Of a stretch of 64,000 bases of DNA, positions 49,034 to 64,000 are shown one piece after another. The stretch spans positions 1,709,001-1,773,000 of the forward strand of contig NZ_CP024920.1 of the NCBI RefSeq assembly GCF_002795865.1, given 5' to 3'. Under the pieces are notes generated by a model that had not been told where the DNA came from, made no database searches, and saw nothing but the letters and a program-made list of their open reading frames with translations. Made by a program: the position numbers and the translations under genes. The first letter of the stretch is position 1. Every line of letters begins with the position of its first letter. Source of the DNA: Qipengyuania seohaensis (GTDB taxonomy: Bacteria > Pseudomonadota > Alphaproteobacteria > Sphingomonadales > Sphingomonadaceae).

Positions 49034-49238
49034 CGGTTTCTCCTCGGATGCTTTTAGGGTCTCTTCCTACCAACGAGCCAGCGTCCGATTTGGTCCGCCA
49101 AGCGCCAATCATTTGCGCACTTCGCCGGACTGCCGACGATGATCGACCAGCGACTTGTGCCCGCGGCCTTTGCGCTTGACCCGCCCGGCGCGGTCGGGAC
49201 TATGCGCGCCAAGGGTTTGGGAATCGCAGAGGACTGAC

Positions 49239-51431
49239 ATGAAAACGACACTTCGCACCATGGTTGCGGGCATGCTGCTCACGACTTCGCACGCAGCGCT
49301 GGCACAGGAAGTGCCGATCGTTCTGCCCGGAGCGCCGGGCGAAGCTCCGCGCGTGATCGACCGTGAAGAAGCGATTGCGCTTGCAGACACTTCCTACTCG
49401 CCTGGCGATGTCGCCTTCATGCAAGGCATGATCACCCACCACCGTCAAGCGGTCCAGATGTCGGAACTTGCACAGGATCGCACCAGCAACGATGCGGTGA
49501 GCAAGATTGCAGCAGGCATCCTCGCCACGCAGAAAGACGAAATCGCCTTCATGACCGAGTGGCTTGAAGCGCGCGGTGAGGCTGTTGCGATGGATCATTC
49601 CATGCATGCCGGTCACTCTGATCATTCGACCATGAAAGGCATGGCGACCCCTGCCCAGATGGCCGAACTGACAGCATCAAGCGGGACGGATTTCGACCGC
49701 CAGTTCCTGCGCTTGATGATCGAGCACCACAAGGGTGCGCTCGCCATGGTCAAGACGCTCCACGAGGCGCCGGGCAGCGCGTACGAGCCGGTGATGTTCG
49801 AGTTCACCAACGATGTCGTTAGCGACCAGCAGGCCGAGATCGACCGCATGAACGCGATCCTCGCCCAGCTGTCGGCCGATCCGAGAGCCACCCTGACTGC
49901 CGGCCTGCGCGATGCGGGCGAGGCGATTTCCGGCTTGCGCCTGGTAGCGGCCCAGCCCAAGCCGGCAGGCTTCTTCGACCCCAAGAACCCGGCGCAGTTG
50001 CAGCCGCTGATCGAAAAGGACGAGGACGAGAAGAAGGCCAAGAAGGACGGCGACGAAGAAGAGGATGAGCCCCAGTTCGGCAAGCGCGGCTCGCTGCTGG
50101 ACTTCGCCAATACCGACATGGCCTTTTCGGGGGATCTGCTGGTGGCAGGCAGCTATCACGGCTTCAACGCATACCGCCTCGGCGATGACGGCGTGCCCCA
50201 GCTGGTAAGTTCCACGGTCTGCCCGGGCGGACAGGGCGACGTATCCATCGTCGGCGATCTCTTGGTCATGAGCGTGCAGGACAGCCGCGCCCGCATCGAT
50301 TGCGGCTTGCAGGGCGTAGACGGCAAGGTCAGCGCAGACCGTTTCCGCGGTATCCGCATCTTCGACATTTCGGACATCACGCGGCCGCGACAGGTCGGGC
50401 TGGTCCAGACCTGTCGCGGCAGTCATACCCATTCGATCGTATCGGCAGACGACGATACAATCGTCCTCTACAATTCGGGCACATCCTATGTTCGTGACGA
50501 CGAGGAATTGGCCGGATGTTTCGATACCGCCGGTGACGAGACCGCGCTGTTCAGTATCGACGTGATCGAGATCCCCGTCGCCAATCCTTCGGCGGCCCGC
50601 ATCGTCGATAGCCCGCGCGTTTTCGCGTCCGATGGGCAAATTGCCGGCCTGTGGCGCGGCGGCAATCACGGCGAGGGCACGCAGGAAACGAATGTGACCA
50701 ACCAGTGTCACGACATCACGGTGTTCCCGGCCAAGAACCTCGCTGCCGGTGCCTGCTCGGGCAATGGCATCATCATGGACATTTCCGATCCGCGCAAACC
50801 GGTCCGGATCGCCGACGTCACCGACAAGGGGTTTGCCTATTGGCACTCCGCCACTTTCAGCAATGACGGCTCCACGGTCCTCTTCACCGATGAATGGGGC
50901 GGGGGCGGCCGTCCGCGCTGCCAGGCAGGCGATCCGATGGATTGGGGCGCCAACGCTTTCTATGCACTCGAAGGCGGCAAGCTCGAATATCGCGGCACTT
51001 ACAAGCTTCCCGCACCGCAGAGCGACAAGGAAAACTGCGTCGCGCACAACGGCTCGATCATCCCGGTCCCGGGCCGCGATATCTTCGTGCAGGCATGGTA
51101 TCAGGGCGGCATATCGGTGATCGACTTCACAGACCCGGCAAACCCGTTCGAGATCGCCTATTTCGATCGCGGACCTATCGATGAAGACCAGCTGGTCACC
51201 GGCGGCTACTGGTCGGCCTATTGGTATAACGGACGTATCTACGCGACCGAAATTACCCGCGGGCTCGACATCTTCGCGCTCGAGCCGAGTGACTTCCTCA
51301 CCGCAGAAGAGATCGCGGCGGCGGAAGCGGCGCAGTTCGAGGGTGAGCTGTTCAATCCGCAAACGCAGACGCAGGTCACCTGGCCCGACGAGGTGGTCAG
51401 AGCCGTAGAAGAAAGCCGCAAGGGAGGCTGA
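49239..51431 (+). CDS. DUF305 domain fused to an LVIVD-type beta-propeller
   Basis: 730 residues from the ATG at 49239 (AGAGGA just upstream), with a signal peptide ending near residue 23, so exported. DUF305 (ferritin-like, two HH motifs: MITHHRQAV and MIEHHKGAL) covers about 30-230. A charged linker (EDEKKAKKDGDEEEDE) follows, then LVIVD-type propeller repeats to about 690. It has several Cys and His-rich stretches. DUF305 proteins often bind copper, but binding here is only inferred. Divergent from the host-attachment gene. Confidence 0.88.
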   Translation: MKTTLRTMVAGMLLTTSHAALAQEVPIVLPGAPGEAPRVIDREEAIALADTSYSPGDVAFMQGMITHHRQAVQMSELAQDRTSNDAVSKIAAGILATQKDEIAFMTEWLEARGEAVAMDHSMHAGHSDHSTMKGMATPAQMAELTASSGTDFDRQFLRLMIEHHKGALAMVKTLHEAPGSAYEPVMFEFTNDVVSDQQAEIDRMNAILAQLSADPRATLTAGLRDAGEAISGLRLVAAQPKPAGFFDPKNPAQLQPLIEKDEDEKKAKKDGDEEEDEPQFGKRGSLLDFANTDMAFSGDLLVAGSYHGFNAYRLGDDGVPQLVSSTVCPGGQGDVSIVGDLLVMSVQDSRARIDCGLQGVDGKVSADRFRGIRIFDISDITRPRQVGLVQTCRGSHTHSIVSADDDTIVLYNSGTSYVRDDEELAGCFDTAGDETALFSIDVIEIPVANPSAARIVDSPRVFASDGQIAGLWRGGNHGEGTQETNVTNQCHDITVFPAKNLAAGACSGNGIIMDISDPRKPVRIADVTDKGFAYWHSATFSNDGSTVLFTDEWGGGGRPRCQAGDPMDWGANAFYALEGGKLEYRGTYKLPAPQSDKENCVAHNGSIIPVPGRDIFVQAWYQGGISVIDFTDPANPFEIAYFDRGPIDEDQLVTGGYWSAYWYNGRIYATEITRGLDIFALEPSDFLTAEEIAAAEAAQFEGELFNPQTQTQVTWPDEVVRAVEESRKGG

Positions 51432-54823: not shown

Positions 54824-56230
54824 CTAATTGGCTGTTGGTGTCAGGCCAAGCCCATCGCGGCGATGCCAGCGCCAACCCAGCAGGATCGCCGCGAAGGTCA
54901 GGCCGGTCGCGAGGCCAATCCAAACGCCGATCCCCTCGAGTGGCGTATAGAAACCGAGGATGATGGCTGTCCCGATGCCGGGAACCCAATAGGAGAACGC
55001 CGCGATCCACATGGGCGCGCGCGTATCCTGCAGGCCGCGCAAGGCACCCGCAGCGACCGCCTGCATACCGTCGAACAGCTGGAACGCGGCGGCGATGACG
55101 ATATATTTGAGAGCAAAGCCGACCAGGACCGCGTTCTGCGGATCCCAAGGATCGACGTAGATAGCGATCAGCGGCTTGGGGATCAGGATCATCGCCAGCG
55201 CAGTGATCGCCATGAAGCCCGTGCCGACCCCGATGGCCATCCAACCGGCGCGCTTGATACCTTCCGGATCGCGCGCTCCATAAAAATAGCCGACCCGGAT
55301 CGTTGCGGCCTGCCCGATGCCGAAAGGCACCTGGAAGGCGAGGGCGGCAATTTGCAGCGCCACCGTATGGGCAGCGAGCTGGCTTGCGCCGATATTTCCC
55401 ATGAGGAATGCGGCTGCTCCGAAGATGCCGGCCTCCGCGGTGATGGTCAGCGCGATGGGCGCTCCGATGCGGACGATATGCATGAAGCGCGGCCAATCCG
55501 GCGACCACCAGCGGCCGAAAATGCGATACCGGTGAAGGCGCGGATCGAGGCGGATGACCAGAACATACGCCGTAAGAGTGGTAATCGTGGTGATGATCGT
55601 GGCGACCGCGGCACCGCGCAGACCAAGCTCGGGTGCGCCCAGATTGCCAAAAATGAACGCGTAATTGGCCAGCGCATTCACGAAGATGCCGGCAGCCGTG
55701 ATCGCAGTCGCGAGAATGGGCCGGTCAAGCGTCGACACGAAACTGCGCAGGACGTTGTTGAACAGCATGGGTATGAGAGAGAGCACGAGGATCGAGTTGT
55801 ATTCGATCGCGAGATCGATGATCGCGGCATCCTGGCCCGTGATCCGCATTATCGGACCAAGCGACAGGCACAGTCCCATGCCTATCGTTCCGGCGAAAAG
55901 TGCGAGCCACATGGCCATCCGCACGCTACGCCGGACCGGCCTCAGCGCTGGCGCTCGGGCGCCAAGTTCGGCTGCGGCGACTGGGGCCACCGCACCGGTC
56001 AGGCCGGAAAACGCCCACAGGACGAGACCGAACAGCGCGATCGCCAGAGCGGATGCCGCCAGTTGCGCCTCACCCAACCGCGCGATGAAGATCACGTCGA
56101 CAGCATAGGTCAGCATCTGGAGCAGGTTGGCTGCCGCCAGCGGCCAGCCAAGCCTTAGGGTCGCGCGAAATTCGCGGCGCCAACCATCGACGTCCAAAGA
56201 CGTGGGCGCACCTTGCTGCGCATCCTGCAT
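54824..56230 (-). CDS. MATE family multidrug efflux transporter
   Basis: 468 residues with about twelve hydrophobic helices in two halves. The N-terminal half has [25 protein letters not shown] and the second half [22 protein letters not shown], both typical of NorM-like transporters. It exports cationic drugs or metabolites in exchange for Na+ or H+. Confidence 0.92.
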
Positions 56231-56382
56231 CGCCGCGTGTTATGACATGAGCAGGTCCGAACCAATGCCGGTCGCCCTTCCGCGATTACGCGGTGACAAA
56301 CTGGCACCGCTTTGCCACAGTAGGGCGCTGGGCCAACCATGGACCGGATCCATGAGACGAACGAGATTATCGAGAATACAGA

Positions 56383-57072
56383 GTGGCCGAGGAAGCAAAC
56401 TTTTCAGAAGCAGCAGCGACGAGTGACGATCCTCGGCGTCGATCCAATCGCCTGGTGCTGCGCCTCCGCACCGGAGTGGGGCAGGCAGGACGCGCGTTCG
56501 ATGCGGAAGTGCTGAACCTTTCGCCCAGCGGCATGTTGGTCAAGACAAGCGCAAGTCTTTCGCTCGACGATCCGCTCGAAGTTGTCTTGCCGAAAGTGGG
56601 ACCGGTGATTGCGAAGGTGGTCTGGTTCGACGACCAGCTTTATGGATGCAGCTTCGCGAACCAGCTGACCGACGAAGAAGTCGAGGCGGCCAATGTCGTA
56701 TCCGGCGATACCGACGAGACCCACGGGGTCGACAATGAAACGCTCGGCTCCCGGATAAAGCGCCTGCGCAAGAACCGGGGATTGTCCATGCGGGCCCTTG
56801 CGGGTCTTGCCGGCGTCAGCAAGCCGACCTTGTGGAAATGGGAAAGCGATCGGGTTCGGCCGCGCCACACCACGATGCAACGTCTTGCCGTTGAACTGGG
56901 GATTTCGGAACTCGAACTCGTCTACGGCGCGCCTGCGGCCCGTACGAACGAAGAGCTGGAATCGGGATCGCTAGCGGACATCGTCCGCGATGCCCGACGT
57001 CGCATTGCCGATGCAGCAGGGGTCGACGAGAGCCGTGTCGATGTCCGCATCGATTGGGGCGAAGAAGACTAG
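56383..57072 (+). CDS. PilZ-XRE fusion, predicted c-di-GMP-responsive DNA-binding protein
   Basis: 229 residues from a GTG. The N-terminal PilZ domain (about 15-105) keeps both c-di-GMP signatures, R19xxxR23 and N45xSxxG50. An XRE-type helix-turn-helix follows at about 124-180 (LGSRIKRLRKNRGLSMRALAGLAGVSKPTLWKWE). The C-terminus is charged. Separately PilZ and XRE domains are common, but a direct fusion of a motif-complete PilZ to an XRE domain is unusual. It is a plausible c-di-GMP-controlled regulator and lies beside the Tad pilus locus. Confidence 0.85.
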   Translation: MAEEANFSEAAATSDDPRRRSNRLVLRLRTGVGQAGRAFDAEVLNLSPSGMLVKTSASLSLDDPLEVVLPKVGPVIAKVVWFDDQLYGCSFANQLTDEEVEAANVVSGDTDETHGVDNETLGSRIKRLRKNRGLSMRALAGLAGVSKPTLWKWESDRVRPRHTTMQRLAVELGISELELVYGAPAARTNEELESGSLADIVRDARRRIADAAGVDESRVDVRIDWGEED

Positions 57073-57078
57073 GTCGAG

Positions 57079-57729
57079 TTAGGGGCGTGCTGGATCCGGT
57101 GCGGCTTTGAGCACGAGCCGGTCCCGAATAGCGTCGTAGGTCAGGTCGACACCCGAGCTACGGACATTCTCGAGCGTCAGTCGCTTTTGATCTGGCAAGT
57201 CTGCGACCTGCCGGTCAAGGTTGAGGTCGGCAAGGGCGCTTGCAAGTGTATCACGCTCGACCTCGATGCGCGTGCCTCCCATCAGGAAGATCGGCAGGCT
57301 CGTTTCGCCTGCTCCGTCCCGCACGAGACGCTTGCGAACTTCGACGCCGTCAGGCCCGCCGTCGAAGGCGGGTTCCAGGCGATAGGACAGCTTCAGGACC
57401 TCTCCACCGTGATCGAGGCTTTCGGGTCCCTTGGCGGCTGGCGGCAGGACCACGTCCAAAGGTGCCGCGGCCTCTGGAGTTGGGGCACTGGACGCTGTCT
57501 CTTCGGAATCCGCGTCCCGGACCAGGGGTTGGATCGCTGGCAGTTTGGTCTTCGTCTGATTGGGCTGGAGCGCGACCCGCAAGATGCCGCCCTCTCTTGC
57601 CTGTCGGTCGGCATGCGAATTTGCGCCGACACCCGCTAGCCCGATCAGGGCAAGTGCCAGGACGATACCGAAAAGGGTGGCTTTTTGCCGTGCCCCCCCG
57701 GACTTATTTATCGTCAATCCGCCGACCAT
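57079..57729 (-). CDS. Membrane-anchored hypothetical protein at the end of the Tad operon
   Basis: 216 residues from the ATG at 57729; a TTG two codons upstream is an alternative. One N-terminal transmembrane helix (about 21-38), then a periplasmic, Pro/Ala-rich part and a C-terminal conserved-looking domain (LEVRK-type, DLTYDAIRDRLVLKA). No family recognised. It starts next to the cpaA stop and may be part of the pilus operon. Confidence 0.6.
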   Translation of the reverse strand: MVGGLTINKSGGARQKATLFGIVLALALIGLAGVGANSHADRQAREGGILRVALQPNQTKTKLPAIQPLVRDADSEETASSAPTPEAAAPLDVVLPPAAKGPESLDHGGEVLKLSYRLEPAFDGGPDGVEVRKRLVRDGAGETSLPIFLMGGTRIEVERDTLASALADLNLDRQVADLPDQKRLTLENVRSSGVDLTYDAIRDRLVLKAAPDPARP

Positions 57730-57731
57730 GC

Positions 57732-58196
57732 TCAACCTGGCATGGTCAGGGCGGCGTATCCGACAGTACCTACTGCGATTGCGACACCGTAGGGCAATTT
57801 TGCAAAGTCATCCTTGCGGCGCTTCATCCCCTTGATGAAGCGTTTGAGAGTGAACCAGAAGAGTGCGAGAATACCCCCCGACAGGACGATGGCCAGTGCC
57901 AGGGCAGGCGCGTCCATGATCGGGAAAAACGCGGCGGACCCTGCGTAGAATTTCCCGTCGCCCGCACCGAAGATGTTCCAGACGAACATCAAATAACCGA
58001 TCAAGAACGCAACAGCCACGTGAACGGCATGCCAGCCCAAAGCCGCCCATCCGTCCATGGCCAGCGCCAGGCCGAGGCCGGCCAAGGCAAGGAGCACTGA
58101 CACGATATTCGGCAGCTTACGCCACACGATATCCGTAATTGCACCGACAGACGAAAGCGCGGCGAGAACGCCGAACGAGATTGTCGCGAGGGCCAT
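57732..58196 (-). CDS. cpaA: Prepilin peptidase CpaA/TadV (A24 family)
   Basis: 154 residues, membrane protein. The two catalytic aspartates of aspartate-type prepilin peptidases are in the TDIVWRKLPN and GAGDGKF motifs. It cleaves Flp-type prepilins at the inner membrane. Here it sits at the end of the operon, after tadD, instead of beside flp as in Caulobacter. Confidence 0.9.
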   Translation of the reverse strand: MALATISFGVLAALSSVGAITDIVWRKLPNIVSVLLALAGLGLALAMDGWAALGWHAVHVAVAFLIGYLMFVWNIFGAGDGKFYAGSAAFFPIMDAPALALAIVLSGGILALFWFTLKRFIKGMKRRKDDFAKLPYGVAIAVGTVGYAALTMPG

Positions 58197-58205
58197 TACT
58201 GCTGC

Positions 58206-59036
58206 TTAATCCTTGCTGTCGCCGGATTTCGCTGCCCGAAGACTTACCCGCATGGGATATCCGCTAGCGACCGAACCTTCAGTTTCGCTCTTCGCACCGA
58301 TCCGCACGCGCATCGGGTAATTCGCGGAGGACTGGATGCGTACCTCGGTCGGACGCGCCGACACACGCGGTCGGACCGGCTGCCCGCTGACCCGAATTCT
58401 TACAGAGGGTGTCTGGGTGACAGGAGCTTCGCCGGCTTCTGCGGTGCGGACCCGCACGCGCGCTTTTTGCGGCTCGGCCCCGTCGAGCGCGATCCGCGCG
58501 GTTGCCATCCCCCGCTCAAGCGTGATCTTGCGTTGTTCCCCACCACTGGTGACGAGACGCTCTTCGTTTACCGGCTCTTCCGAAAGGCCGGATTCCGATT
58601 GCGCAAATTCGGTAAAGGCCTTGCGCGCTTCTTCTTGCTGAGCGTGAAGCGTGCGCATGTCCTGCGCAAGGTCGCTGGCGTAAAACCGCTCGAGATTCGC
58701 AGCGAACTTCGCGTCCTGCGGTGAAAGTGTCACTGCCGCACGAAAGTAGCGTTCCGCCAAATCACCGCGCCCGATCCGGGCATAGGCAACGCCCAATGCG
58801 TTGGCGGCATCAGGAGCGGTCTGGCGGTTCAAAGCCGCGCGCTGCAGGGCCGGGATCGCATTGCCGTACTGGCCATCCGCAAGCAGGCGCCGTCCTTCTT
58901 CGAGATCCGCCTCGCCGAACAGGGGCTGGGTGGAACGGGTGTGGTCGCCGAAGTTGAAGGCGTTGATGAAGCTTTGGCAGCCGGACAACGGCATAACTAC
59001 CGCCAGCGCGGCCAGCGTTGCAGGAACTTTCTTCAT
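58206..59036 (-). CDS. TPR lipoprotein, TadD-like
   Basis: 276 residues from the ATG at 59036, with AGGAGG upstream. A lipobox (LSGC) and TPR repeats in the first ~150 residues (LGVAYARIGRGDLAERYFRAAVTLSP) match TadD, a pilus assembly lipoprotein. The C-terminal half is Arg/Thr/Val-rich without a recognisable domain. Its start is one base after the tadC stop. Confidence 0.85.
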   Translation of the reverse strand: MKKVPATLAALAVVMPLSGCQSFINAFNFGDHTRSTQPLFGEADLEEGRRLLADGQYGNAIPALQRAALNRQTAPDAANALGVAYARIGRGDLAERYFRAAVTLSPQDAKFAANLERFYASDLAQDMRTLHAQQEEARKAFTEFAQSESGLSEEPVNEERLVTSGGEQRKITLERGMATARIALDGAEPQKARVRVRTAEAGEAPVTQTPSVRIRVSGQPVRPRVSARPTEVRIQSSANYPMRVRIGAKSETEGSVASGYPMRVSLRAAKSGDSKD

Positions 59037-59037
59037 A

Positions 59038-60012
59038 TTATCCTCCTCCAGACATAGCGGGACCGATGTCGCGCACGAACATGATGACAGCCGGCAGGAC
59101 CAGCACACCGATCATCGTCGGCAACATGCATGCGACAAGCGGGATGGAAATCAGCACAGGGATGCGGTGGGCTTTTTCCTCGGCTCGCATCCTGCGCGCC
59201 TCACGCATTTCATTCGCGTAGACGCGCAAGGTATTGGCGATGCTCGTTCCCAGCTTGTCCGACTGGATCAGCAGCGTGGCAAACGAACGGATTTCATCGA
59301 CGCCCGAGGCATCTGCAAGCTGGCGCAGCGCGGTTTCGCGCGATGCACCGGCACGCGTCATGAGGACGGTTTCGATCAGCAAGTGCGCGATGAGGGGGTG
59401 CGAACGGGTCATTTCCCGGCCAACCCGGTCAAGCGCGGACTCAAGGCCCAGGCCCGCTTCCACGCACACCAGCACGAGGTCGAGCGCGTCAGGGAAGCCG
59501 TTGATTATTTCGGACCTGCGGCGATCGGCTTTCGCGCGAATGAAAAGGTTCGGAATGTAGAGACCCAAGGCTGCTAGGATCGAGCAATAAAGGTAGATCG
59601 AAAGCAGGCCTGGCGGCTCGGTGCTGAACGAAATCAGCAGCAGGAAAAGTCCAGGCAGCAGAAACACCATGCCGATCCGCGCCATAGTGTACACGCGCGG
59701 CGCGCTGGGGCTGGAATATCCAGCCATCTTCAGCTGTTTCTCGAGCTTGTGGTTCTTCGGGTCGGTCAGGCTGAGGCCAGTTCGTTCAATACTGTCGGCG
59801 ATTTTCGCCCAACGGCTGTCGGATTCTGTGCGTACGAGGTTGGTTTTCTCATTCGCGGCAGCGTGGGAATCCAGCCGCGCAATCTGTTGGCTGGCCCTGC
59901 GGCGTGCCTCGACGCCGTTTACAACGATCAGGATCACCCCGGTAACCAGCGCGAAAATCAGCGCAAGTACCAAGAGGCGTACGACAAGACTGGTGGCAGC
60001 GAGTTCGAGCAT
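59038..60012 (-). CDS. tadC: Tad pilus inner membrane protein TadC
   Basis: 324 residues, GspF-like fold: helices near the N-terminus and C-terminus around a cytoplasmic domain (VEAGLGLESALDRVGREM, GTSIANTLRVYANEMRE). It pairs with TadB as the polytopic platform of the Flp pilus machine. Confidence 0.93.
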   Translation of the reverse strand: MLELAATSLVVRLLVLALIFALVTGVILIVVNGVEARRRASQQIARLDSHAAANEKTNLVRTESDSRWAKIADSIERTGLSLTDPKNHKLEKQLKMAGYSSPSAPRVYTMARIGMVFLLPGLFLLLISFSTEPPGLLSIYLYCSILAALGLYIPNLFIRAKADRRRSEIINGFPDALDLVLVCVEAGLGLESALDRVGREMTRSHPLIAHLLIETVLMTRAGASRETALRQLADASGVDEIRSFATLLIQSDKLGTSIANTLRVYANEMREARRMRAEEKAHRIPVLISIPLVACMLPTMIGVLVLPAVIMFVRDIGPAMSGGG

Positions 60013-60013
60013 G

Positions 60014-61015
60014 TCAGACCTTCAGATCGATTAGCTTGCGAATGGTGAAGACACCGATGAAGTACAGAACGATCAGGAAAATCGAGCCGAATATGAAGAT
60101 CGGGTCATCCGCAACGTCGAGGTAGAATTCCGGGGCGCCGAGGAACGTTGTTACGAACGCGAAGATAGGTAGGATGCTGAGCATCCAGCCCGTCATTCGG
60201 CCTTCGGAGCTCAAGGCGCGGACTTTCATGTACATGGACGCACGGTCACGGATGACCCCGGCAAGGTTCTCTAGAATTTCCGCCAGGTTGCCGCCGGTTT
60301 CACTTTGCACCGAAAGCGAAACCACGAACATGCGCATGTCCTCGAGTTTCCAGCGGTCGGCCATGGAATCGAGCGCGGTGGTCAGATCTGCACCGTAGGT
60401 GATTTCATCGCTGACGAGGCCGAATTCAGAACCGATCGGATCCTCCATCTCCTGTGTCAGCAATTCGATGGCCGAAGCAACCGGGTGGCCCGAACGCAAG
60501 GCACGTACGAAGATATCCAGCGCAACCGGGAATTGTTTTTCCATCGTCTTGCGCCGGCTGTTCGCAACTTGCGCCAGGATGAAATATGGTATGCCTGCGC
60601 CAGCAGCGACGGCGAAGAGAAGACACAACTGCACCGCGCCGAAACCGATTTCGGCACCTGCACCGACAGCAATTCCCAGAGCGATAATGAAAAGCAGGCC
60701 AATGCCGATCGCCATCGCGATAATGACCTGCGAGATGCTGAAAGTGACGCCAGAGGTGTAGATCATGTGCTCGAAACTGATCGCCATGCGCCGCAAGAGC
60801 GGTGGCAACGCTTCGTGTTCGCGCGGACGGTTCTTCAGCAGTTCGCCGTAAAGGTCCTCGCGCGTCGTGCCCTTCTGGATGAGCGACATGCGGCGATTGG
60901 TTGCCACCGTATGGGCGCGGCGGGCGGCGATCGCACGGCCGACCGTCTGGAATAACAGGAACGCCGCTGCGAAGATCGCAAGCAGGAATACGATGCGGAT
61001 GATCTCGGTCGTCAT
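60014..61015 (-). CDS. tadB: Tad pilus inner membrane protein TadB
   Basis: 333 residues, GspF-like. The GspF-type segment VALDIFVRALRSGHPVASAIE and SVQSETGGNLAEILENLAGVIRDR match TadB. Its start overlaps the cpaF stop (TGATG), and tadC starts 1 base after it. Confidence 0.93.
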   Translation of the reverse strand: MTTEIIRIVFLLAIFAAAFLLFQTVGRAIAARRAHTVATNRRMSLIQKGTTREDLYGELLKNRPREHEALPPLLRRMAISFEHMIYTSGVTFSISQVIIAMAIGIGLLFIIALGIAVGAGAEIGFGAVQLCLLFAVAAGAGIPYFILAQVANSRRKTMEKQFPVALDIFVRALRSGHPVASAIELLTQEMEDPIGSEFGLVSDEITYGADLTTALDSMADRWKLEDMRMFVVSLSVQSETGGNLAEILENLAGVIRDRASMYMKVRALSSEGRMTGWMLSILPIFAFVTTFLGAPEFYLDVADDPIFIFGSIFLIVLYFIGVFTIRKLIDLKV

Positions 61016-62409
61016 CAGCCCAGCTTCATGTCCGGACGGAACAGTTCGGGCGAAAGGTGCATGCCGTGGGTTTCAGCCTCGTCGAGGAACTTGGGCCGGA
61101 TGCCGGTGGCCTCGAAGTGGCCGAGGACCGAACCGTCGTCGGCACGTCCGGTCATACGGAAGCGGAAAATCTCCTGCATGGTGATCGTTTCCCCTTCCAT
61201 GCCGGTGATCTCCGACAGGCTCTTGATCTTGCGACGACCGTCGGAAAGGCGTCCGACCTGGACGACGACGTTGATAGCCGATGCGATCTGGGCCCGGGCA
61301 CTCTTCGACGTAATGTCGATGCCGCTCATGCCGATCATCTGTTCGACGCGGCTCAAAGCGTCGCGAGGCGTGTTGGCGTGGACTGTGGTCATCGAGCCGT
61401 CGTGGCCGGTATTCATTGCTTGCAACATGTCGAAGGCTTCACCGGCGCGGACCTCGCCCACGATGATGCGATCGGGACGCATACGCAGGGCGTTCTTGAC
61501 GAGATCTCGCTGCGTGACTTCGCCCTTGCCTTCGATATTGGCCGGACGTGTCTCGAGCCGGGCGACGTGCGCCTGCTGTAGCTGGAGTTCGGCCGAGTCT
61601 TCGATCGTAACGATGCGCTCTGCCTCGTCAATGTACGAAGACATGGCATTGAGCAGCGTCGTTTTACCCGAGCCGGTACCCCCCGAGATGAGCACGTTGC
61701 GGCGGGACTTCACGATCGCCTCGAATACCGGTGCCATCTGTTCGGGAACACTGCCCAGATCGATCATCTTGGCGATGCTGATCGGGCTCTTGGCGAACTT
61801 ACGAATGGATACCAGCGATCCGTCGAGCGCGAGCGGTGCGACAATGGCGTTCACACGCGAACCGTCTGCAAGGCGCGCGTCGACGAAGGGCGAGCTTTCA
61901 TCGACCCGGCGCCCGACTGCGCTAACGATCTTCTGGATCACGCGCATCAGGTGCTTTTCGTCCTGGAACCTGGTCGGCACCGGCTGAAGCATGCCGCGCT
62001 TTTCGACGAACACCGTGTCCGGACCGTTTACCAGAATATCGGTAATCGTTTCGTCGGCAAGAAGAGGTTCGAGCGGACCGAGGCCCATAAGTTCGTCAAC
62101 CAGCTCCTGAACCAGTTTCTCGCGTTCCTCTCGATTGAGCGGTTCGTCGAAATCGGCGAGCAACTCAGGAAGAATGCTGGAGATCTGAGCCTTGATCTGT
62201 TCGGTCGGGGTCTGCTCCAGCATGGCCAGATTGAGACGGTCGAGCAGGCTGTGGTGGATCGACAGCTTCAGCCTGAGCATCTTTTCCGTATGCTCGTCCT
62301 TCTTGCCGAAGAGGATCCGCTCTTCGTCCTCTGCCGAAATCAGGTCGGCATCGCCATGCTGCGTGACCGGCGTCTCGTGCGACGTCTCGTCGAGTTTGGT
62401 CTTCCACAT
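61015..62409 (-). CDS. cpaF: Tad pilus ATPase CpaF/TadA
   Basis: 464 residues from the ATG at 62409. The GspE-family ATPase has the Walker A GGTGSGKTTLLNAM, the Asp box VTIEDSAELQL, the His box region GHDGSMTTVHAN and the Walker B IIVGEVRAGEA. It powers pilus assembly and retraction at the inner membrane. Confidence 0.96.
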   Translation of the reverse strand: MWKTKLDETSHETPVTQHGDADLISAEDEERILFGKKDEHTEKMLRLKLSIHHSLLDRLNLAMLEQTPTEQIKAQISSILPELLADFDEPLNREEREKLVQELVDELMGLGPLEPLLADETITDILVNGPDTVFVEKRGMLQPVPTRFQDEKHLMRVIQKIVSAVGRRVDESSPFVDARLADGSRVNAIVAPLALDGSLVSIRKFAKSPISIAKMIDLGSVPEQMAPVFEAIVKSRRNVLISGGTGSGKTTLLNAMSSYIDEAERIVTIEDSAELQLQQAHVARLETRPANIEGKGEVTQRDLVKNALRMRPDRIIVGEVRAGEAFDMLQAMNTGHDGSMTTVHANTPRDALSRVEQMIGMSGIDITSKSARAQIASAINVVVQVGRLSDGRRKIKSLSEITGMEGETITMQEIFRFRMTGRADDGSVLGHFEATGIRPKFLDEAETHGMHLSPELFRPDMKLG

Positions 62410-62410
62410 G

Positions 62411-63592
62411 TCAGTAATCCTTCCCGATCTTCGCACTGATCGAAGTGGCCAGGTCGCCGATCTGGCGAGAGAGGCGTGCGCGCTTCTGGAGCGCTGCGAC
62501 ACTCACGCCCTGCAACTGGGCTTCTTCCACCAGCTGCGTATCTTCTTCGAGAGTTTGGACGACGTCGTATCCCAGAAGTTCTTCCATCTGCGACACGTCG
62601 GAACGCTTGAAGAGACCCCCGGACAAACGATTGAGCACGACCGAAATGTTCTGGCGTTCGCGGCCCAGCATCTGGAGGAGCGACAATTTACGCTTTACGT
62701 GACGCAGCGCGGAAATCCGGCCTACGCCCACCACGACAACCTCGTCTGCCGATAGCAGGATCGGCATCGCCCAATTGGGCAGCGTCGAAGGCATGTCGAG
62801 CACGACTGCACTGTAACGCTTGCGGGTTTCGCGCAGCATCCGGCCGATTTCATCCGCCGATGCGCTTTCGATCGGCTCGATATCGTCGGGCGCGGCAAAC
62901 AGGTCGAGGTCATCCCCGCAATCGATGGCCACCGAGCGCATCAGCTCGTCGTCGATCCTGTCGATCGCTTCGAACAGGTGGCTGATCGTCATGCGCGGGC
63001 TCTTGTCGAGATAAGCGCCGGCATCGCCGCTTTGCAGCGAAAGGTCGATGAGAGCGGTGCGGGCCCCTTCGCCCAGCCGCGAACTCATCATCGTGGCCAG
63101 TTGCGTGGCGACAGTGCTGGCGCCCACGCCGCCTGCCGCACCGAGAACTGCGATAACCGGAGCCAGAGTGACCGGCGTTTCGGGTCGGACCGGCTTGGCA
63201 GCGCGCGCAACATCGACGATTGCAGCGATGAGCTCCTCGCTCGAGAACGGCAGCTCCAGCACGTCCACGACGCCTTTGCGCAGCAACGAGCGTACGGTTC
63301 TCACCGGTGCAACCTGCAATCCGGCGATGACCGGGAGACCGGGGCGCTTGGCCCGCAGCCGTTCCAAACGAGCAAGCGAGTCCGGATCTTCGGAGTCGAT
63401 TTCCACAACTGCGATCGCAGCCTGTTCCACCGCTGCAACGGGGAAGTCCTCGGCTGTGCCCAGGCGGTGCAAGGTTACGGAATCTTCGAGAATGGCGATA
63501 TTGCCGAGCGCCTCTTTGCGCGCGAACACGTGCACGCCTTCCGGAAGGGTCATTCCATTGTCCGTTTCATATGTGTCGGAAAAATCGGTCAT
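62411..63592 (-). CDS. cpaE: Tad pilus assembly protein CpaE (MinD-like ATPase)
   Basis: 393 residues from the ATG at 63592. A receiver-like N-terminal domain without an obvious phospho-acceptor is followed by a MinD/ParA-type ATPase with a deviant Walker A (GAAGGVGASTVA). CpaE localises the pilus machine. It starts 7 bases after the TadE/G stop. Confidence 0.92.
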   Translation of the reverse strand: MTDFSDTYETDNGMTLPEGVHVFARKEALGNIAILEDSVTLHRLGTAEDFPVAAVEQAAIAVVEIDSEDPDSLARLERLRAKRPGLPVIAGLQVAPVRTVRSLLRKGVVDVLELPFSSEELIAAIVDVARAAKPVRPETPVTLAPVIAVLGAAGGVGASTVATQLATMMSSRLGEGARTALIDLSLQSGDAGAYLDKSPRMTISHLFEAIDRIDDELMRSVAIDCGDDLDLFAAPDDIEPIESASADEIGRMLRETRKRYSAVVLDMPSTLPNWAMPILLSADEVVVVGVGRISALRHVKRKLSLLQMLGRERQNISVVLNRLSGGLFKRSDVSQMEELLGYDVVQTLEEDTQLVEEAQLQGVSVAALQKRARLSRQIGDLATSISAKIGKDY

Positions 63593-63599
63593 GGCGCTC

Positions 63600-64000
63600 T
63601 CAATTTGAATAGCTGCCAGCGCCATCTTCGGCGGTCAGCGAATAGGCGAACTCGGGCAGCGCAATAGTACCCGTAAACAGGCTATAAATCGGTGTGTGCT
63701 GCATGTTGATCAGCTTCACCGTCACAATTGGTGCGACATCGGGGCCGTTGGGGTCTCCCGAAAATCCGAGGCCGGACCAGTCGTACTCGATGCGTACGTT
63801 GCTGGCCTGAATTTCCGATTTTATCTCCTGCATTCGATCTACGATACTCGTGAATGCGGAGGAGTTAGCGGTCGTTGGAAAGCTGCAGCTTCCTTTGCAA
63901 GTGCAACCGCTGCTGGTGCATGCCAGCCCTGGAAAAGCCGATTGCGGTACAATTGTGCCCTGTTCAATTCCGCCGCTCGTCGCAAAACTGTAGCTCGCCA
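63600..64000 (-). CDS. TadE/TadG-like pilus assembly protein, C-terminal part (gene continues past right edge)
   Basis: The frame is open to the window edge, giving about 133 residues: a Cys-rich stretch (ACTSSGCTCKGSC) and the conserved-looking EYDWSGLGFSGDPNGPDVAPIVTV and PIYSLF segments of TadE/TadG-family pseudopilins. The N-terminal membrane helix and start lie outside. The remaining Tad genes (flp, cpaB, cpaC) are expected further right. Confidence 0.7.
   Translation of the reverse strand, partial: ASYSFATSGGIEQGTIVPQSAFPGLACTSSGCTCKGSCSFPTTANSSAFTSIVDRMQEIKSEIQASNVRIEYDWSGLGFSGDPNGPDVAPIVTVKLINMQHTPIYSLFTGTIALPEFAYSLTAEDGAGSYSN

Follow-up and report, generated by a model that had tools for sequence, protein, structure and literature searches.

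A PilZ-XRE protein beside an accessory Tad pilus locus of Qipengyuania seohaensis as a candidate c-di-GMP-responsive transcription factor

PilZ is the best-known receptor domain for the second messenger c-di-GMP. Most c-di-GMP transcription factors use helix-turn-helix (HTH) domains, whereas MrkH couples PilZ with a novel kind of DNA-binding domain, as passages of a 2025 review have it (PMC12564702). MrkH of Klebsiella pneumoniae is the closest known system to the protein considered here, which we call PilZ-XRE: according to parts of PMC3161979, it likewise combines a c-di-GMP PilZ domain and DNA binding in one protein, and it binds DNA and activates a fimbrial operon (type 3 fimbriae). Yet MrkH is without an HTH; the same parts of PMC3161979 report no obvious HTH homology and propose that the N-terminal portion binds DNA, whereas PilZ-XRE has a canonical XRE HTH after its PilZ domain and does not belong among proteins of the MrkH type, which bind DNA without a recognisable HTH. 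The MrkH structure 5kec matched our model of PilZ-XRE only weakly. A later structural paper on MrkH reportedly implicates the PilZ domains themselves in DNA binding.

Three further systems invite comparison. Alg44 shares the PilZ fold and motif set (R17/R21/D44/S46 in Alg44), but in the portions of PMC12564702 that treat it the PilZ domain is joined to a membrane fusion domain and serves alginate synthesis, not DNA. BldD of Streptomyces is, like PilZ-XRE, a c-di-GMP-responsive HTH regulator, its HTH being N-terminal (parts of PMC4151990 and PMC7288161), but it is the C-terminal domain that binds a c-di-GMP tetramer (same part of PMC7288161). PlzA of Borrelia is a PilZ protein reported to bind nucleic acids, but with a tandem xPilZ-PilZ arrangement (parts of PMC10333796). 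No PilZ-HTH factor is named in the available portions of PMC10333796 or PMC7288161; the latter counts 221 PilZ architectures in Pfam, so the PilZ-XRE architecture need not be unseen, only unstudied. Our search of the open-access literature, outside of which most subscription journals lie, found no characterised PilZ-HTH factor, and the statement in the preliminary description of this locus that the family is established thus holds for PilZ and XRE separately and not for their combination. We know of no PilZ domain in BldD or, unlike in PilZ-XRE, in XRE/HTH_3 regulators of the SinR, P22 c2 and DdrO type, and of no HTH in PlzA. The terms Tad, pilus, pili, c-di-GMP, PilZ and flp do not occur in PMC9241875, on Qipengyuania genomics.

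The window, that is, the whole stretch of 64,000 nucleotides analysed (contig NZ_CP024920.1, positions 1,709,001 to 1,773,000), contains the features of Table 1. The preliminary description had proposed a motif-complete PilZ domain fused to a full XRE HTH, and Pfam searches bear this out, with PF07238 at 41.8 bits against a cut-off of 22.5, HTH_31 at 44.7 bits over residues 121-176 and HTH_3 at 42.7 bits over residues 125-179 (cut-off 23). The signatures R19xxxR23 and N45xSxxG50 lie exactly where they had been placed, residue numbers being counted from the predicted GTG start (a near ortholog, P0001, has 269 aa and is predicted with an N-terminal extension). By sequence, intact PilZ motifs and a P22 c2-like HTH are joined in one chain. 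In an AF2 model built from 28 sequences (mean pLDDT 79.7; under 50 for residues 1-24, which hold R19 and R23), the PilZ part resembles the c-di-GMP-bound PilZ domain of Alg44 (4rt0) by PDB structure comparison, while the HTH part has the cI/Cro-like five-helix fold and lies near P22 c2, 434 Cro and SinR, some of them solved on DNA; the matches listed included no conspicuous PDB chain that combines a PilZ with an XRE domain. The C-terminal block ADIVR..RRRIA.AAGV....V.I.I (residues 196-226) is kept in most relatives, has no Pfam match and possibly serves dimerisation. The 2.94-Mb single-contig host genome holds 13 GGDEF matches and 13 PilZ matches in 12 open frames, the top PilZ match being PilZ-XRE, and the window protein as query returns a single PilZ-XRE match.

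Table 1. Coordinates of the PilZ-XRE gene, its promoter block and its neighbours in the window.
Feature	Position	Strand	Remarks
MATE transporter, divergent neighbour of PilZ-XRE	54824..56230	-	PF01554, 159 bits
Conserved 28-bp block with dyad symmetry, GGTGACAAACTGGCACCGCTTTGCCACA	56292..56319	+	between divergent MATE and PilZ-XRE genes
PilZ-XRE gene	56383..57072	+	229 aa, GTG start; orthologs and paralogs found
PilZ domain, residues 18-99, with R19xxxR23 and N45xSxxG50	56434..56679	+	PF07238, 41.8 bits
XRE helix-turn-helix over residues 121-179; lysine 152 falls in its recognition region GVSKPTLWKWE	56743..56919	+	
Conserved C-terminal tail, residues 196-226	56968..57060	+	paralog alignment; helix 197-212 in AF2 model
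218-aa Tad2-locus protein, convergent with PilZ-XRE	57079..57735	-	no family match of note
Prepilin peptidase (CpaA-like)	57732..58196	-	PF01478
TPR protein (TadD-like)	58206..59108	-	TPR_16
TadC-like	59038..60012	-	T2SSF
TadB-like, Tad2 marker	60014..61015	-	T2SSF; TadB_TadC_N below its cut-off
CpaF/TadA-like ATPase	61015..62502	-	T2SSE, 227 bits
CpaE-like ParA ATPase	62411..63625	-	AAA_31, CbiA
TadE-like minor pilin, cut by window end	63600..64000	-	PF07811 on L134:17601-18209

We read PilZ-XRE, with a probability of roughly 60%, as a predicted cytoplasmic c-di-GMP-responsive transcription factor of the XRE type, belonging to a lineage associated with the neighbouring pilus locus (Tad2) and probably autoregulated. 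In this mechanism c-di-GMP would bind the PilZ domain and order the N-terminal RxxxR arm, and the bound messenger would alter the seating of the C-terminal HTH, as a dimer, on DNA. Judged from sequence and model, binding of specific DNA appears very likely and binding of c-di-GMP quite likely; that the second changes the first is a reasonable expectation.

The family to which the protein belongs is broader than its genus. At E <= 1e-3 we recovered 66 database relatives, all with HTH domains and 65 with a precomputed PilZ domain. Among 17 related named loci, 15 are from Qipengyuania or Erythrobacter and one from a Sphingomonadales bin, the remaining one, from Nocardioides, matching the HTH part only. 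Both domains are found together in records named Altererythrobacter, Croceibacterium and Sphingobium as well; PilZ-XRE is therefore at least a Sphingomonadales family, whose members already carry PilZ or XRE labels in databases.

Within this family, 36 of 74 aligned rows read WKWE at residues 151-154, by which the set is defined, and in a tree of the 74 rows these 36 form one clade (support 98/92). Lysine 152 is present in the set by definition, alanine occupying the position in 37 of the 38 others, and it may point to a DNA target common to the clade. Of the 26 Tad2-adjacent proteins, 25 fall in the clade, and the one outside it is the long-branched row of G191; the label Tad2-adjacent changes six times on the tree, among grouped rows, and Tad2 has therefore been lost or gained repeatedly beside the gene. 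Four fragments out of 78 rows (L131, L190, L192 and L193) were dropped before the tree and the motif counts; one of them, L190 (G066, contig C7), reads WKWE and does not adjoin Tad2. WAWE is read at L169 (G015) and L191 (G194), neither of which is beside Tad2 or has an ORF under a rule demanding an ATG, GTG or TTG start.

These alignments bear on whether the PilZ domain still senses its ligand. The full set R19/R23/[DN]45/S47/G50 is found in 34 of the 36 clade members and in 24 of the 25 that lie beside Tad2; R19 is gone in two clade members (L112 and G223, one of them beside Tad2), as against 9 of the 38 other family members. Such losses, together with the non-binding PilZ domains described in parts of PMC10333796 and PMC7288161, would suit an ordinary XRE repressor whose PilZ domain has lost c-di-GMP sensing and persists as a protein-interaction or dimerisation module. 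We consider this quite improbable, for R23, [DN]45, S47 and G50 are retained in all 74 sequences counted.

The preliminary description had also placed the gene next to a Tad pilus locus, which the prepilin peptidase, TPR, T2SSE, two T2SSF and ParA-like ATPase genes confirm. With the window TadB as query, all 60 genus genomes give a distant Tad match (E about 1e-32 to 1e-42) and 23 give a second, close match (E 6e-102 or better), and it is a locus with such a close match that we call Tad2; the pilus genes beside PilZ-XRE are a second, accessory Tad system, the distant one lying elsewhere in the genome. On the minus strand the Tad2 order is flp, cpaB, cpaC, a 408-aa ORF, two TadE genes, cpaE, cpaF, tadB, tadC, tadD, cpaA and the 218-aa gene. 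RcpC/CpaB, secretin, TadE, T2SSE and T2SSF domains were confirmed; neither the 408-aa ORF nor the 60-aa pilin, named flp by inspection, has a Pfam match.

The neighbourhoods fetched were those of 19 close members of the genus and 18 more distant ones besides the host genome (G244 and G235, among the 18, match incompletely), and of two second places, in G221 and G244. PilZ-XRE adjoins Tad2 inside one 20-kb stretch in all 23 Tad2 genomes among the 60 of the genus, and in G066 and G189, of two other genera, the flp leader and Tad2 lie downstream of it, so that the link is stronger than had been claimed. Seventeen of the 23 loci, the host's included, are convergent like the window, while in six Tad2 lies downstream of PilZ-XRE on the same strand. 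MATE stands on the other side of PilZ-XRE in both arrangements (G222 alone has no MATE marker), and thus it is Tad2 that has been inverted relative to the gene. The 218-aa protein marker adjoins PilZ-XRE in 16 of 16 fetched convergent-type loci. By inspection, L114 and L154 have a gene similar to the 218-aa one on the strand opposite PilZ-XRE. In the inverted group an M23 peptidase gene lies between PilZ-XRE and this look-alike (L114:8908-9813 and L121:8935-9594, assigned by a family match on the L114 copy and by inspection on L121), and its product perhaps aids passage of the pilus through peptidoglycan.

A further 10 of the 60 genus genomes carry a lysine-152 PilZ-XRE without Tad2 (in G244, one of these, the C-terminal tail looks broken), so the gene is not present only with its Tad locus. 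Fisher's test on 23/23 against 10/37 gives p 4e-9, uncorrected for relatedness; most of the adjacency seen in the genus is a matter of inheritance. In the 199 genomes of the family, full-length PilZ-XRE is only weakly associated with Tad2 (12/44 against 23/155, p 0.07; with G194, a match in two pieces, 13/44 and p 0.04; neither p is corrected for relatedness), the 35 full-length genomes having been hand-picked as those with one match spanning both domains, with divergent or split ones besides G194 uncounted. In family genomes with both, the two are together in 5 of 12 and apart in 7 of 12 (together in 5 of 13 with G194). In G191 the last Tad2 gene is followed by a divergent PilZ-XRE whose residue 152 is tyrosine, and a lysine-152 protein is encoded elsewhere in the genome. 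A dedicated Tad2 regulator throughout the family was rejected as a general rule on account of the weak co-occurrence and is kept for the lysine-152 clade only.

Such a distribution raises the alternative that PilZ-XRE, though responsive to c-di-GMP, regulates its own gene, MATE or genes elsewhere, its adjacency to Tad2 reflecting shared history at one site. Consistent with this, it still adjoins MATE in seven of the ten Tad2-less genomes (L098, L103, L105, L116, L119, L124 and L126), in five of which (L098, L103, L105, L116 and L119) it lies within 2 kb of rplL; in the host genome some 41 kb separate it from rplL, which lies past Tad2 and a large adhesin locus, and the gap is where Tad2 sits. 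We nevertheless find it unlikely as the whole account, since in G066 and G189, whose fetched stretches show neither a groESL nor a MATE marker, PilZ-XRE is still beside Tad2, since both relative orientations occur, and since none of the window's other markers lies near PilZ-XRE in three of the ten Tad2-less genomes (L122, L123 and L125). PilZ-XRE is, in sum, a real, conserved and apparently uncharacterised regulator that is genetically tied to the accessory Tad pilus, and control of Tad2, be it direct or indirect, is likely.

As to a direct target, the likeliest site would be the 28-bp block in the gene's own divergent promoter, and it is on this account that PilZ-XRE is read as probably autoregulated. 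Within the block two inverted repeats overlap, CGGTG-N9-CACCG and TGGCA-N6-TGCCA, and the block occurs once in each of 8 of the 60 genus genomes (six exact, two with one mismatch), always upstream of PilZ-XRE; it is absent from the other 52 at up to 3 mismatches, and its reversed control has no match in the 60. Between the host and L107, whose PilZ-XRE proteins are 68% identical, the block is identical at 28 of 28 positions, as against 35% and 25% for the flanking 40 bp aligned without gaps; the flanks are more alike between closer genome pairs. No further copy exists in 40 kb around the host locus. No near copy was found in 17 flp upstream regions (best 11 or more mismatches of 28), nor, on the sense strand, in the 400 bp upstream of PilZ-XRE in other clades (11 or more mismatches); an alignment of the 12 upstream regions of L094-L105 showed no comparable block at the gene start, the remaining groups having been scored against the host block only.

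From its sequence the block may be an operator, a core promoter or both, and it might serve MATE. A single copy between the MATE and PilZ-XRE starts is also what would be expected if the targets were local, and its absence from flp promoters and other clades supports local regulation, not pilus control. The block was rejected as an operator shared by PilZ-XRE and Tad2, since the flp upstream regions have no near copy of it. A GGTR...YACC dyad common to the clades, seen in 11 of 42 upstream regions where 5 would be expected, is driven by near-identical copies and is not claimed. Reading TGGCAC...TTGC in the block as a sigma-54 promoter was rejected on consensus, the spacing being one base short. 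The preliminary description's proposal of direct control over the pilus finds no support here: the sole strongly conserved dyad found belongs to the gene's own promoter and has no counterpart in that of flp and Tad2, and ten genomes keep the gene without the locus. Autoregulation at the block itself is a tentative proposal, somewhat short of even odds, and direct control of Tad2 by PilZ-XRE is rather doubtful.

Directly upstream of the Tad2 flp gene, past the window end, an alignment of flp upstream regions reveals a conserved structured leader of ~130 nt (L135:3362-3491, minus strand; G000:C1:1778352-1778481), a candidate riboswitch or protein-bound leader. In 36 sequences (35 distinct), 32 cells keep pairing through two-sided changes as against 4.9 in shuffles, a figure to be read with two cautions, since fitting the alignment to a related model favours structure and the shuffles ignore relatedness; none of 500 shuffles scores as high, and slid structures score far lower. 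Of the 199 family genomes, 16 have a match to a covariance model searched under strict filters, fewer than half of the 44 with Tad2. A second model matches 37 of the 396 genomes searched in the order, and each of the 37 belongs to the window's family, whose share of the 396 is not specified. Rfam holds no credible match, the best (E 0.019, below the gathering score) overlapping the end of the pilin gene and the spacer. The 3' hairpin, CGGAAATAGANGCCGG, is nearly invariant; its pattern turns up at 24 places, spread over 23 of the 199 genomes, where the control gives a single match. Sixteen of these places adjoin TadB, six fall within predicted ORFs, one is at the end of a contig and one is upstream of a PilZ gene.

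The leader suggests another account, in which Tad2 expression is set mainly by this structure and other regulators and PilZ-XRE is a mere neighbour. In its favour, Tad2 genes follow directly in 15 of the 16 family genomes where the model finds the leader (in the other it stands at a contig end), and outside the genus PilZ-XRE is unseen in the fetched stretch of 10 of 13 leader-bearing Tad2 loci. An RNA leader and a transcription factor can, however, coexist, and we judge this account improbable. The c-di-GMP-responsive factor preferred here admits of a bolder and more speculative extension, which we think unlikely as it stands: that sphingomonad PilZ-XRE proteins form an undescribed class of c-di-GMP-gated HTH factors, whose lysine-152 lineage was recruited as a switch for the accessory Tad system, with the pilin mRNA bearing a new structured leader of its own. 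If so, second-messenger or metabolite input would gate the accessory pilus at two levels. A one-chain PilZ-XRE would connect c-di-GMP to transcription in the simplest way possible; its many natural paralogs would allow comparisons of specificity, and the 28-bp candidate site offers a defined test target.

Three minor observations concern the surroundings. In G119 the leader hairpin recurs as CGGAAATAGAAGCCGG (L233:6737-6752, minus strand), with a stand-alone PilZ gene of 118 aa about 165 bp downstream of it. Past the window end, L135:4752-18764 (plus strand) holds a 3226-aa ORF with Ig- and cadherin-like repeats and, after it, OmpA, outer-membrane efflux and ABC-transporter genes, likely a type I secreted adhesin next to Tad2. 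Within the window, at 49155-51431, inspection shows a 758-aa ORF in which a DUF305-like N-terminus is fused to LVIVD-like repeats.
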